Positions 1 to 6,450 of a stretch of 33,866 nucleotides of DNA are shown here, piece by piece (the first letter of the stretch is position 1; every line of letters starts with the position of its first letter). Location of the stretch: contig CALUYW010000020.1 in NCBI GenBank assembly GCA_944325105.1, forward strand, positions 1 to 33,866, given 5' to 3'. The translations under genes and the position numbers were made by a program. The stretch is from Candidatus Gastranaerophilales bacterium (GTDB lineage Bacteria > Cyanobacteriota > Vampirovibrionia > Gastranaerophilales > Gastranaerophilaceae). The notes below the pieces were generated by a model that was not told where the DNA came from, did no database searches, and saw nothing but the letters and a program-made list of their open reading frames with translations.

Positions 1-1178
1 TTACCGCCACTACCTATCGTTATCTCAAACACATCCTTAGGCAGAACATTAATTGTCTTCTCCATCACAGCACCTGAGGAACCACCTGCGCCGCTATATC
101 TGTTCATACGATTGAGGGCACGGACACAACGGACGGAAAGTGCGTCTTCATTTCCTTTGTTAACAGCACCGTTGTTACACGCACCATGTCTTATATAAAT
201 TTTTTCAGCTCTGCCCCATATATACGCCTCTTTACAATAATCATCAGGTGCTCCTGAGCACCCCCTAGCAATATTACAAATTGCCGTTCTTGAATCTTCA
301 CCTGAGGAACATCCATAATTGTCATTATGAGAACAAAGTTGCAAACCTCCTGAACCTGCTCCCACACTCCAATCACTAAAATACTTAGCTATCTTGCCCA
401 GCTCAACATTGCCAGGAAGTGTATATGTTGAGCGATTTTCTATTTTTGTTGCTTTATATGCAAGACAAACTCTTGATGCAGCCGCATATGTACATACAGG
501 TCGATTACAACCGCTCGCTGAACTACCTTGGCTAGGGGAAGTGCAATAAGAGCTACTACCTTCCCAACAACAAACACCACTTCTGATGCAAGGTTGTCCT
601 CTTTCTACATCAGGAGTCAGGTCTAGTCCAGGTCTTCCAGCAACATCAGGATAGCTCAAATTACGCTTTGTATAGCATAAATCCTCTTCACTCTCTGCTC
701 CTCTTATTGCCAAAAACTCATCACTCAGGCATTTATCATTATAAACATTGGGGTTTTTTGCATTTACACTCGGATTAGCACTTCCATTACTTCCCCCTCC
801 ACCACCACCTGAACCTGTGATAGTAAGAGTAACCTGATTAACACCACTTGGTATTGTCCAGTTAGCAGAAGAAGTAAAAGAAATACTTTTATCAACATAA
901 GTAGAACCTCCTCCACCTCCAGCTCCTCCCGAACCTTGAATAAATAATGTATTAATACCGACAGGAACATCAAATGTATAAGTACCCGGATTGGTATATA
1001 TCTCTAACCCCTCTCTATTATCAGTCTGTACGGTAATATTATCTTTCATCCTCTTTGTTATAACAGGAGCTAACGCCACCATAATAACCGATATCACAAG
1101 TACTGCAGTTAAAAGTTCTGCAAGTGTAAACGCAGCAAAAACATGACACTTGCGTGCAAAATTCGTATCTCTATTCAT
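1..1178 (-). CDS. Type IV prepilin-like protein with glycine-rich repeats (C-terminus outside window)
   Basis: The reading frame stays open for 392 codons from the ATG at 1176-1178 to the window edge, so the C-terminus is missing. The N-terminus has a class III (prepilin) leader: a short basic segment, then A16|F17 followed by TLAELL with Glu at +5 and a hydrophobic helix to about residue 40. A PilD-type peptidase would be expected to cut before F17, making this a pseudopilin or minor-pilin-like surface protein. Residues 65-91 and 106-130 are two similar units, each a short beta-like segment (TYTFDVP, NWTIPSG) ending in a run of glycines; the rest is rich in cysteine, glycine and serine. GGAG lies 5-9 nt before the ATG. 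A large glycine-rich domain on a pilin stem suggests an adhesin-like tip or a secreted substrate; that role is inference. Confidence 0.75.
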   Translation of the reverse strand, partial: MNRDTNFARKCHVFAAFTLAELLTAVLVISVIMVALAPVITKRMKDNITVQTDNREGLEIYTNPGTYTFDVPVGINTLFIQGSGGAGGGGGSTYVDKSISFTSSANWTIPSGVNQVTLTITGSGGGGGGSNGSANPSVNAKNPNVYNDKCLSDEFLAIRGAESEEDLCYTKRNLSYPDVAGRPGLDLTPDVERGQPCIRSGVCCWEGSSSYCTSPSQGSSASGCNRPVCTYAAASRVCLAYKATKIENRSTYTLPGNVELGKIAKYFSDWSVGAGSGGLQLCSHNDNYGCSSGEDSRTAICNIARGCSGAPDDYCKEAYIWGRAEKIYIRHGACNNGAVNKGNEDALSVRCVRALNRMNRYSGAGGSSGAVMEKTINVLPKDVFEITIGSGG

Positions 1179-2611: not shown

Positions 2612-3685
2612 TTATTCTTCGCCCATTGCCTTATTATAAATATCAATCAGCTTGCCTTCTCCGCTCATAAAACTGAAGTCTTTTTGAATTGCGGTTTTAA
2701 AATCCATCTCATCTGCGTATGGGCTATTATTATAATATTCTATTACTTGTTTTAATGCGTCTTTGTCAAGATTCATAACTTGCCATACAGCCTCTTCATC
2801 CGTACCCCACTGACCGCGTGTTGCATCGTAGAATTTTGAAGCCATTTGTTTTAAGAACTCTTCAGAGAGCACATCTTCAGACGCTGCATCGTCGACATAT
2901 TTTGCTCCTGAAACATTACCGTTTTCATCGTATTCAAGAACTGCTTCAAGCGAGTTTTTAATTTTAGCAACATACTTATCTTCAGTAGAAAAACTAAACT
3001 CACCTCTTACCATGCTTTCAAGGCTTTCGCCGTACTTAGCTTCGTAAGCTTGAGCCACCGCTGCCATTTCCGCACCATTTAGAGCAGTGTATGAATCTGT
3101 ACCGTCAAAATATTTTTCAAATACACTTTCGTTTGTACCCCAGCCAAATATTCCGGGTTCTGAAGCCCCGTGCAACGAGGTAGCTATAGCATCAGCATCA
3201 AAGCCGCTACGGACTTGTTCTGATCTTAACAATTCAACTTGTGGTTGCTGGTCTTGATTATCGCCCGAGCCGTCTGCACCGCTTACTTCTCCCGAAGCAC
3301 CCTGACTGCCGGCTGCATCTCCATATGCATTATCACCGGTTAAGTCACCATCAGAGCCTCCCACTTGAGTATCGGAACCGTCACCCGTTTGTCCGCCTTG
3401 CGAACCCGTAACATCTGAACCATCAGAAGTTTCATCATCTTGAGCTTGCATTTCAGCAAGTGTTTTATGGAACTGGTCAAATATGGCATCGTATGATGAA
3501 GAATAATCCACATCGCCACCAAATATACTTCCATAAGGAGAAGTTGTGTAAGACTCCGTTGCAAATACACTTGTATCATCTTGATAGTCGTATGAGTCGT
3601 AACCTGAATTCGTATTTGTTTTGGTGTTGTAATTGTTATCATCCCAATACTGACCAAAAGACATTATACTGTAGTTACCTGACAT
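2612..3685 (-). CDS. Annexin-like repeat protein with acidic low-complexity linker
   Basis: A 357-residue, very acidic protein in three parts. Residues 1-80 are rich in Asn, Tyr, Ser and Asp and contain GGDVDYSSSYDAIFDQF (56-72), which recurs in the next gene upstream. Residues 82-148 are a Gly/Asp/Ser/Gln linker. Residues 163-245 and 278-354 are two repeats resembling annexin repeats: GWGTNES (181-187) and GQWGTDEE (291-298) match the G.GTDE Ca-binding loop, followed in repeat 1 by AYEAKYGESLESMVRGEFS, typical of the later helices (Y..KYG..L......E.SG). Annexin repeats bind membranes through calcium; bacterial versions exist but are poorly characterised. No Sec signal or membrane helix is seen. 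AGGAGA precedes the ATG. Membrane binding and export are inference. Confidence 0.65.
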   Translation of the reverse strand: MSGNYSIMSFGQYWDDNNYNTKTNTNSGYDSYDYQDDTSVFATESYTTSPYGSIFGGDVDYSSSYDAIFDQFHKTLAEMQAQDDETSDGSDVTGSQGGQTGDGSDTQVGGSDGDLTGDNAYGDAAGSQGASGEVSGADGSGDNQDQQPQVELLRSEQVRSGFDADAIATSLHGASEPGIFGWGTNESVFEKYFDGTDSYTALNGAEMAAVAQAYEAKYGESLESMVRGEFSFSTEDKYVAKIKNSLEAVLEYDENGNVSGAKYVDDAASEDVLSEEFLKQMASKFYDATRGQWGTDEEAVWQVMNLDKDALKQVIEYYNNSPYADEMDFKTAIQKDFSFMSGEGKLIDIYNKAMGEE

Positions 3686-3742
3686 AACTTTCTCCTAATG
3701 TTTATATCTTGTATATATATAAAGTATTTATGATGATAAAAA

Positions 3743-3847
3743 TTGACATATTTTTTATATATTAAGATAAAACTCAATAGAATTAGGTATTTTCGGATTC
3801 ACATTTCTTTACATACTAAAAATGCCCCTTGCGGGGCACTTTCATTT
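3743..3847 (+). ncRNA. Possible short transcript (promoter plus hairpin) between two minus-strand genes
   Basis: TTGACA (3743-3748) and GATAAA (3766-3771) lie 17 nt apart on the plus strand, predicting a start near 3778. The bidirectional hairpin at 3823-3838 followed by CTTTCATTTTTA could end it after about 70 nt. No plus-strand gene follows. The -10 box is weak and no secondary structure beyond the terminator was seen, so this is only a candidate. Confidence 0.2.
3816..3840 (-). terminator. Intrinsic terminator of the glycine-rich protein gene
   Basis: TGCCCC and GGGGCA (3823-3838) form a 6-bp GC-rich stem with a 4-nt loop. On the minus strand it is followed by TTTTT and lies 20 nt past the stop of the gene ending at 3858. 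Confidence 0.85.
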
Positions 3848-3857
3848 TTACTTTTCA

Positions 3858-5429
3858 TTATTCTGCAGAACCAATACTAAATGCATCTTCTACAAAAGTT
3901 CTAAATACCAGATTTGTCTTATAATCAGTTGTTTGTTTCATCGCCTCATAAGCTGCCTTAAATTCACTTGCAGTTGAATTAACCTTACCTGTAAAAGCTT
4001 GCTTTATATCTTTAGGAGACATATCTTTAATATTTGCACCTTTCTTAAATAATTCAACTACATTATTTCTTGCTTTTGCAGCCATTTGACCGAATGTGAG
4101 ATTTGCAGTTCCTTCCGGAGATGTTGGCGCCTCAGGTGCGGCAGGTGTAGTAGGAGTTTGAATTTCTTTTATTTGTTTTAATGCCTGTCTGTATGCATTA
4201 CCACTTCCCATTGTTGTTTTTGCTACCCCTACATTTCCGTCAAAGAACTTTAACAGGTCAGCTTCTGATGTAATTTTTCCTTCTTGTATAAGGTTGTTAA
4301 TATATTCTCTTTTTTGAGCAGTTGTCATATTTTTAGCTTGCTGAGTAAATGCAGAAACCTCAGAATCTATATCAACCTTAGGGGTCGAAGCTATTGCCTC
4401 ATCGGCTGCATCAGCTGCAGAGTTAGCTGCTTTATTTGCGCCATGCGCCCTAACACCTGCAGTAAGACCACCAATCGTACCACCTACAACAGCACCGCCA
4501 GCAGCGCCTGTTACTGTATTAGATACAAGTCCGCCAAATGTAAACTCATCACCATCAAATACGGCATCAGCAGTGTAATTTGTCGCACCCATAACGGCAC
4601 CGTCTATGGCACCTGCTTTGGCACCTGCAATAGCACCTTGTTTTACAGTTTCTTTAACAAGAACTTTGCCGCCTTCTTTAACAACAGTAGCGCTTGCACC
4701 TATACCGGCAGTTGCAGCCGTAACCACGCCACCTACGGCACCTGTAACACCGTCTTTAAGTCCGTCTTTTAGCGAATAATCTCCTTCAACATTATTAGTG
4801 GCAGCGTTACTTGCTTTTACGCCAACTTTGACCGCAGCGCCAACTCCGGCACCAATTGCCAAACTTGCACCAAATGAAACCGGAGCCAAAATAACACCTG
4901 CTGCAACAGCAAGACCTGATGCTATGTTAGCAAAGACATCAACTACAGAGCCTTGTTTAGAAGCATATGTATTTAATTTTTCAACGGCAGCTTCATATGA
5001 TATTTCACCTGCCGCAGCTTTATTTATTGTATCTTCCACGGCATTTGAACCGTTACTGTGTCCAAAGAAATTTTTAATACCGTTCCAAGCTTTACCTACC
5101 CAACCTTGTTGGTCTTGAACTTGTTGATAAGCAGCTCTCAGTTGTTCTATTTGCTCTTCAGTTGCCTTAGTGCCGCCGTCAGCCGCAAGCTCACCGCTTT
5201 GACCGGAACCTTCCGTTGATGAATCGCCTGAGCCATCGCCTGAAGAATCACCTGCAGCAGATGAAGAAAAGTTATCTAATATTGAATCATAACTGCTTGA
5301 GTAATCAACATTGCCAAACAAAACTTCGTTATCGGCAACATTTTCAATTTTCTTTTGTATGGCATTTGCCATGTTTTGTCCGTTTTGATACGCAGTTAAA
5401 CTGTCAGCATAAATGGTGCTGTAGCTCAT
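3858..5429 (-). CDS. Glycine/alanine-rich hydrophobic protein sharing an N-terminal motif with the annexin-like neighbour
   Basis: I do not recognise this 523-residue protein as a named family. Residues 38-54 (FGNVDYSSSYDSILDNF) repeat the motif of the neighbouring annexin-like protein, again followed by an acidic Gly/Ser linker (56-86). Residues 93-160 look helical (QQGWVGKAWNGIKNFFG, then a segment with GEISYEAAVEKL). Residues 164-330 are long Ala/Gly/Val-rich hydrophobic stretches with glycine-zipper spacing (AGGAVVGGTIGGLTAG at 310-325), as in membrane-inserting or pore-forming proteins. The C-terminal 180 residues are soluble, mainly helical, with a Pro/Ala linker at 426-440. GAGAGGA precedes the ATG and a strong terminator follows. 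The shared tag with different C-terminal parts suggests a common export or sorting route; this is inference. Confidence 0.6.
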   Translation of the reverse strand: MSYSTIYADSLTAYQNGQNMANAIQKKIENVADNEVLFGNVDYSSSYDSILDNFSSSAAGDSSGDGSGDSSTEGSGQSGELAADGGTKATEEQIEQLRAAYQQVQDQQGWVGKAWNGIKNFFGHSNGSNAVEDTINKAAAGEISYEAAVEKLNTYASKQGSVVDVFANIASGLAVAAGVILAPVSFGASLAIGAGVGAAVKVGVKASNAATNNVEGDYSLKDGLKDGVTGAVGGVVTAATAGIGASATVVKEGGKVLVKETVKQGAIAGAKAGAIDGAVMGATNYTADAVFDGDEFTFGGLVSNTVTGAAGGAVVGGTIGGLTAGVRAHGANKAANSAADAADEAIASTPKVDIDSEVSAFTQQAKNMTTAQKREYINNLIQEGKITSEADLLKFFDGNVGVAKTTMGSGNAYRQALKQIKEIQTPTTPAAPEAPTSPEGTANLTFGQMAAKARNNVVELFKKGANIKDMSPKDIKQAFTGKVNSTASEFKAAYEAMKQTTDYKTNLVFRTFVEDAFSIGSAE

Positions 5430-5637: not shown

Positions 5638-5661
5638 ATAACTTGTGTGTGGTTTATAGAA

Positions 5662-6450
5662 GTGAACGTAGAAAGAATTACAACAACAGGTTTTCGCCCT
5701 GTAAGTACAGTTGCATATAATTCGGGAGCCATAGGCGGAAGATACATATTAAACGCCGATACTTTTGTGCGCGAGAAATCAAAAATTAATCCTGCGGCAC
5801 AAAACCCGATTTATGCCATAAGAGATGATTTTTTAGTAAAACTCTTTCCGCGCGAATTTGTAGGAAAATACTCTAACCCCTATGTACTTAAATCAGCCTT
5901 AGGAGAAAATCATGATTTACAAAAACTACTCGCAGCAGAATTAAGTGCAAGTAATATTTATCCTCAAAATGTATCAGGGGAAGTATATCCTCACTTTGTA
6001 CCTACAGCAAAAGCTGCTCAAGGCATAATGAAGCACTATGGAAAAAGCTTCAGCAATAAAGATTTTACCACAATGAACAAAGCGGCATTACTACATGATG
6101 TGGGAAAGGCATACATCCCTGATGCTATTTTAAATAAAAACGGCAGACTTGATGATTGGGAAAGAAAAATAGTAGATAAGCACGCTCATCTTGGTTATGA
6201 AACCCTAAGGAGCGCAGGGGTTGAAGCTCCGGTACTGAAACTTGTAAAAAATCATCACACGTACTCAAACTCAAATGAGCCAATGGTTCAAATCCTGCAA
6301 ATTGCAGATATTTATAGTGCCCTTAAAGAAGAAAGACCATATAAAGCCTCAATGAGTGATAAAAAAGCTCTTGATATCTTAAGAGGCAGAGCGCAGGGCG
6401 GAGAATTTGAAAAAGAATATGTCAGAGCTCTTGCAAAATCACTTTCTTAA
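5662..6450 (+). CDS. HD-domain phosphohydrolase, HD-GYP-like but without the GYP signature
   Basis: Residues 136-228 (from GTG 5662) form an HD domain: KAALLHDVGKAYIPDAIL with H145/D146, a conserved GRL..WER, then H.HLGYE, KNHH and ILQIADIYSAL..ERPYK. This order matches HD-GYP proteins, which hydrolyse cyclic-di-GMP, but HHTYSNSN replaces the usual HHE...G.GYP, so substrate and activity are uncertain. The N-terminal 130 residues match nothing I recognise. The first possible start is GTG 5647, adding five residues; I prefer GTG 5662 (protein starts MNVERITTTGF) because transcription probably begins near 5644. Neither has a clear ribosome-binding site. A PilZ protein encoded at 13.3 kb would be a possible partner in c-di-GMP signalling. 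Confidence 0.8.
   Translation: MNVERITTTGFRPVSTVAYNSGAIGGRYILNADTFVREKSKINPAAQNPIYAIRDDFLVKLFPREFVGKYSNPYVLKSALGENHDLQKLLAAELSASNIYPQNVSGEVYPHFVPTAKAAQGIMKHYGKSFSNKDFTTMNKAALLHDVGKAYIPDAILNKNGRLDDWERKIVDKHAHLGYETLRSAGVEAPVLKLVKNHHTYSNSNEPMVQILQIADIYSALKEERPYKASMSDKKALDILRGRAQGGEFEKEYVRALAKSLS

Follow-up and report, generated by a model that had tools for sequence, protein, structure and literature searches.

We analyzed a 33,866-nt stretch of DNA (the window), which is contig C20 of a 1.76-Mb Candidatus Gastranaerophilales genome (G000, the source genome). Two genes, P0001 and P0002, lie side by side on its minus strand between a conserved gene for a bifunctional nuclease domain protein (PF02577; 2039–2551, minus strand) and a conserved, divergent gene for an HD-domain protein (5647–6450, plus strand). 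P0001 (2612–3685; 357 aa) consists of a leader, a short tag, an acidic disordered linker, and two annexin repeats; P0002 (3858–5429; 523 aa) has a leader, tag, and linker followed by Gly/Ala-rich hydrophobic helices and a helical C terminus. A first-pass annotation of this DNA had reported a common VDYSSSYD in the two adjacent reading frames, and we recovered both frames with the segment in each, at residues 59–66 of P0001 (3488–3511) and residues 41–48 of P0002 (5286–5309). The tag extends over 3440–3520 in P0001 (GGDVDYSSSYDAIFDQFHKTLAEMQAQ; a motif and profile match, with a helix predicted at low confidence over residues 65–85) and over 5241–5318 in P0002 (FGNVDYSSSYDSILDNFSSSAAGDSS; a motif and profile match). 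The leaders open with a further segment, block 1, at 3644–3685 in P0001 (MSGNYSIMSFGQYW) and, by its pattern, at 5382–5429 in P0002 (MSYSTIYADSLTAYQN). The acidic Gly/Ser linker that the annotation had placed after the tag is present in both proteins, as an acidic Gly/Ser/Asp stretch at 3224–3430 in P0001 (low pLDDT) and at 5172–5264 in P0002 (read from the sequence). Elsewhere in the window (3–1178) and at the end of contig C3 (L093:19085–19903) are two prepilin-like proteins (FTLAELL...), nearly the same over their N-terminal regions and rich in glycine in their bodies, a repeat at two contig ends that may have broken the assembly.

The C-terminal part of P0001 is an annexin-like domain of two repeats (2615–3208). 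It has a family match to the Pfam annexin model PF00191 (29 bits at a cut-off of 25, E = 1.1e-6), and a profile search of the PDB returned annexin VI (E = 1.5e-12). The AlphaFold model shows the five-helix repeat fold, with five helices in residues 164–246 and five plus a short one (322–325) in residues 275–354; residues 1–154 were modeled with low confidence and include the helix at 65–85. Annexins were the top Foldseek matches of this model (E = 7e-6, probability 1.0), with a low whole-chain TM of 0.2–0.3 because P0001 has only two repeats and a disordered half. Neither profile nor model contains the four-repeat core of canonical annexins, and on this evidence we class P0001 as an annexin-domain protein with two repeats and not as a canonical annexin. 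In the sequence, two GxGT-like loops, GWGTNE and QWGTDE, fall where annexins have their type II Ca2+ sites; Ca2+-dependent lipid binding is a putative activity of P0001.

Annexin matches were found in 21 of 117 relatives, 12 of them above the family cut-off, and came from several genera of the order. In one relative (G045), a 1060-aa protein (L053:3975–7157) carries annexin repeats at its C terminus (Pfam E = 8e-22). The sections consulted of a published survey of bacterial annexins (PMC3894181) list Bacteroidetes/Chlorobi, Gemmatimonadetes, beta- and delta-Proteobacteria, and Actinobacteria, and do not name Gastranaerophilales. The proteins described in those sections have annexin repeats, as P0001 does, and some come in neighboring pairs or carry fused toxin, protease, or lipase domains; a tagged leader like that of P0001 is not mentioned there. 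A literature search combining annexin with Melainabacteria returned no paper with annexins of this lineage in its title.

P0002 had no match over any cut-off in Pfam, NCBIfam, or the PDB, and its AlphaFold model was poor (pTM 0.23). Its conserved body (4395–5159; QGWVGKAWNGIKNFFGHSNGSNAV... and glycine-zipper-like segments) also occurs in untagged relatives elsewhere in the order, and its C-terminal helical segment (3861–4112) is kept in most congeners. The annotation had called this protein glycine-zipper and membrane-active: the Gly/Ala-rich hydrophobic helices are there, and membrane activity stays putative. Its description of the two C-terminal parts as unrelated agrees with these helices and with the Pfam and PDB matches of P0001. 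A relative in a congener (L137; overall identity to P0002, 38%) retains block 1 and lacks the tag. A Lachnospiraceae match (L138) was taken as unrelated, being a phage tape-measure-like protein of which only a WNGIKNFF-like helix aligned. Three untagged relatives of the P0002 body (L056:4303–6690 on contig C3 of the source genome, L054:3209–5587, and L055:3383–5761) end in a different domain of ∼340 aa with conserved GDA.GTR and ELQ.RGT...AE.EHIPYD, and each has a small adjoining gene. The domain had no database match; together with the small gene, it looks like a toxin-like module with a candidate partner. Motifs resembling those of RelA/SpoT proteins had suggested such a reading for the C terminus of the P0002 paralog on C3, which we do not claim given the null Pfam and PDB searches.

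Similarity between the two leaders is well beyond what composition would produce. The best ungapped N-terminal match of P0001 and P0002 (GDVDYSSSYDAIFDQFHKTLA and GNVDYSSSYDSILDNFSSSAA) scored 69, a value reached in 0 of 2000 composition-preserving shuffles (maximum 60; Gumbel fit p ∼5e-5). At the DNA level, identity over the 60 bases surrounding the tag is only 58% (35/60), with silent differences in most of the eight codons for the identical residues. The tag is thus not a recent DNA copy, and its retention at the protein level over such diverged DNA shows selection on the peptide. These shuffles and silent differences, together with recurrence across the genus, led us to reject a chance origin.

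Exact and relaxed DNA patterns located the strict motif in the source genome only in the P0001 and P0002 genes. At the syntenic locus, all 15 genomes of the genus (14 searched congeners and the source) have one to four tagged genes. The first set of loci read yielded 27 tag-bearing reading frames with the consensus VDYSxxYDxI[LF]D[NQ][FY], in which Y, S, and Y are invariant across unrelated families. We built a profile from 25 window-locus tags and searched 117 genomes of 76 genera: matches at E < 1e-5 came from the genus only, from all 15 of its genomes, and all from the window locus. No match in the other 102 genomes was significant; the best (E = 0.016) was a tag-like FSSYDNIFKDFQSSL near residues 21–35 of L074:1438–3051 in a member of another family (G036), which could be a distant tag or chance. 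Its restriction to one genus means that no widespread secretion system uses the tag as a general signal. The C-terminal types at the locus comprise two divergent annexin-like types, the P0002-type glycine-zipper, a coiled type (in G001 and G007; L039 5807–7390 and L045 4172–5767), and one further type in G009. Four tagged genes are found in G001, and one protein of G014 bears two tags. The annexin/glycine-zipper pair is not obligate: in G008 and G010, the locus includes one tagged gene of annexin-like type and lacks a glycine-zipper gene. The tagged set with varied C termini that the annotation had proposed looking for in the source genome therefore exists at the level of the genus, and not strictly within that genome.

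A tandem arrangement of one to four copies at one locus is what simple common descent would give: a gene family with swapped C termini whose N terminus was inherited and signals nothing. We consider this improbable, as the DNA of the tag has diverged while its Y, S, and Y stayed invariant, which shows that the tag is under selection. The few invariant positions in the disordered half of the A4 set point the same way, falling in block 1 (M1, Y5, F10, and Y13), a serine (S49), the tag (D60, Y61, and Y65), and one linker aspartate (D105). Common descent at one locus also sits poorly with weaker copies of the tag at unlinked loci.

The profile made from window-locus tags alone detected such copies, as sub-threshold matches at conserved loci, in adjacent CHAP/EF-hand and SLT proteins of G012 (E = 6.6e-4 and 7.6e-4) and in rpmB-adjacent proteins of five genomes (E = 0.0028–0.0124); because some of these sequences went into a second profile (A2), the E-values that it gives them are circular, unlike those of the first. 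Pfam confirmed CHAP with EF-hand and SLT domains in weakly tagged proteins, with CHAP found in L099 and L128 and not confirmed in L111. Tagged proteins that combine an EF-hand and a coiled coil with a terminal CHAP or CHAP-like part follow macAB genes in G002, G004, G005, G006, G009, and G010, and a Tyr-rich tagged protein lies beside rpmB in G000–G006 and G012 (the G011 contig stops short of rpmB). Some of the latter, such as L100, are largely repeated tags; L100:3632–4240 and L110:4028–4441 are small and Tyr-rich, with YFxxxF at the end and one or more tag-like repeats. In the source genome, the rpmB-neighbor copy scored E = 0.004, and the CHAP copy is degenerate. The tag of CHAP proteins follows the EF-hand, at about residue 123. 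Of the matches to a regular expression for the tag, 44 fell within the first 150 residues and three beyond; many of these loci had been retrieved on account of the tag itself, and overlapping retrievals enter the count more than once. We dropped the weak profile matches in L076, L080, L085, L087, L107, L108, L116, L121, and L124 as chance or ambiguous. Separately, the combination of EF-hand, long coiled coil, and CHAP or CHAP-like end adjoining macA-macB-like genes (L102, L106, L111, L112, L114, and L122) recalls FtsEX-PcsB.

No Sec-type hydrophobic stretch was found in the 10 tagged proteins sampled: the maximum 10-residue hydropathy over residues 1–55 was at most 1.12, compared with 3.15 for a signal-peptide-like and 3.25 for a prepilin-like control, and a Sec or Tat signal is therefore not indicated. 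Ser, Asn, Tyr, and Asp are abundant and Lys, Leu, and Val scarce in their first 50 residues, a trend resembling that of type III signals. Block 1, formulated as ^M[ST]x5-10[FLYM]xx[YF], was found in 24 of 27 tagged proteins and two of 166 background reading frames; the pattern was chosen post hoc and the congeners are related, so these are not independent counts. Endolysin-like CHAP and SLT proteins and hydrophobic glycine-zipper partners, all without Sec signals in the sample, could alternatively be stored or assembled by means of the tag and released on lysis. This has little chance of being right, given that tagged genes occupy chromosomal core-gene neighborhoods (BFN nuclease, rpmB, and macAB) conserved across the genus, around which we saw no phage-like genes.

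The explanation we tentatively place first is that the tag marks substrates, in this genus only, for Sec-independent export, with a flagellum- or type III-type gate as the probable route. The N-terminal ∼60–85 residues would form a bipartite, mostly disordered leader, composed of block 1 (residues 1–14, M[ST]...[F/L]xxY) and then DYSxxYDxI[LF]D[NQ][FY], running into a short predicted helix. A dedicated cytosolic factor, either a chaperone or the export gate itself, would recognize the tag, and proteins with unrelated bodies would leave the cell without a Sec signal, most likely by one of two type III-type (flagellum-related) gates. The cargo of Ca2+-dependent membrane binders, hydrophobic glycine-zipper proteins, and wall hydrolases would act at the envelope or beyond it. 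Wall hydrolases can act only once outside the cytoplasm, and their weak tags, together with the missing Sec-type stretch in the sampled proteins, favor a role in export. This is the strongest indirect argument we have, and it hinges on the weak tags being homologous. The annotation's reading of the tag as a delivery signal thus holds in part: its varied cargo exists at genus level and the sampled leaders have no Sec-type stretch, but the tag is narrowed to a single genus and export itself is a step we infer. Points against an export tag are that the source genome has only two strong tags, that L137 lacks it, and that the CHAP proteins carry it as far in as residue ∼123.

Much of the same evidence would suit a docking motif through which P0001, P0002, and others join one complex on a common cytosolic or envelope partner, with no bearing on membrane crossing. 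We regard this closest rival as a distinct possibility, if a doubtful one. A short conserved motif with a predicted helix inside a disordered region, adjacent genes in conserved order, and a genus-limited spread all agree with docking, and L100, the rpmB neighbor made mostly of repeated tags, resembles a multivalent scaffold. Docking accounts less well for the weak tags on CHAP and SLT enzymes, whose wall-cutting role requires them to exit the cytoplasm, and for a common block 1 at the extreme N terminus, the usual place of export signals.

Genes for a candidate export route are widespread, with FlhA homologs in 57 of 58 genomes searched and three in the source genome. A high-scoring FlhA lies on C15 with FliP, FliR, and FlhB; a second lies on C2 with FliH, FliF, FliE, and an SLT protein, and FliO, FliP, FliQ, and FliR are on C3. 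The third (L093:8282–9730 on C3; 482 aa) is an FlhA C-domain without the membrane part, residues 130–474 of which match the FlhA cytosolic half (FHIPEP positions 321–656). Similar short C-domain matches occur in many relatives; in G045, such a gene stands beside genes resembling fliJ, fliK, flgD, and flgE. By gene content, the source genome encodes two type III-type (flagellum-related) export gates. The high-scoring FlhA type tracks flagellin, and 12 flagellin-less genomes (G015, G016, G017, G020, G021, G023, G024, G026, G027, G028, G031, and G032) keep the other type without the first, a retention suggesting that the second gate is flagellin-independent. FliE/FliF/FliH/FlhA-like clusters are kept in G016 and G020 (Pfam was run on G020 only). 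The second cluster of the flagellin-bearing G045 additionally encodes rod proteins and the export ATPase, making it flagellum-like. Retention of a gate without flagellin fits the incomplete flagellar gene sets reported in some members of the lineage that lack a functional flagellum (Soo et al. 2014, PMC4040986). We saw no tagged genes beside gate genes in the loci read, and we rejected the tag as a general flagellar or type III signal because it is genus-limited whereas FlhA-type gates are order-wide, and because its profile did not report flagellin genes. Contractile injection particles are known to have varied cargo with N-terminal tags; we searched the source genome and 12 congeners for the contractile sheath gene (PF04984), found none, and rejected a packaging tag of this kind as extremely improbable.

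Two known systems offer partial parallels. Flagellar and type III systems export FlgJ-type wall hydrolases, which likewise have a peptidoglycan-cutting domain behind a non-Sec N terminus, whereas the tagged CHAP/SLT enzymes lie in several genomes beside macAB and not in flagellar operons. The major and minor translocators of type III systems share a class II chaperone motif (IpaB PELKAP, PopD VELNAP, and YopD PELIKP) (PMC3443056). As there, two proteins here have a common short motif near residues 50–70 in the leader, one partner (P0002) is strongly hydrophobic, Sec signals are missing, and type III-type gates are present. The differences are a DYSxxYD in place of the PELxxP-like hexapeptide, with no shared PxLxxP-type chaperone motif, an annexin-like second partner with further cargo types, and gates that are flagellum-like, through which secretion of tagged proteins is our proposal. 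A search with the LcrH/SycD chaperone model returned only general TPRs, below the cut-off, which swamp such a search. By analogy, the tag may work like a translocator motif that binds one chaperone, but P0001 and P0002 do not qualify as a translocator pair.

The broadest version of our proposal is that the flagellum-derived type III-type apparatus kept by flagellin-less lineages is a secretion system in gut Gastranaerophilales, and that this genus uses a tag of its own (DYSxxYDxILDxF with M[ST]..FxxY) to export annexin-like, membrane-active, and wall-cutting proteins through it. We hold it to be unlikely as a whole. If the tag does direct export, it would open an easy way into the secretome of a gut lineage that is related to cyanobacteria and mostly uncultured, would predict the release of Ca2+-dependent membrane-binding proteins in the gut, and would give a job to the partial flagellar gene set that Soo et al. 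2014 (PMC4040986) found in members whose flagellum is not functional. Should it be a docking site only, the tag still marks out a protein family that lacks annotation and points to a binding partner worth seeking.
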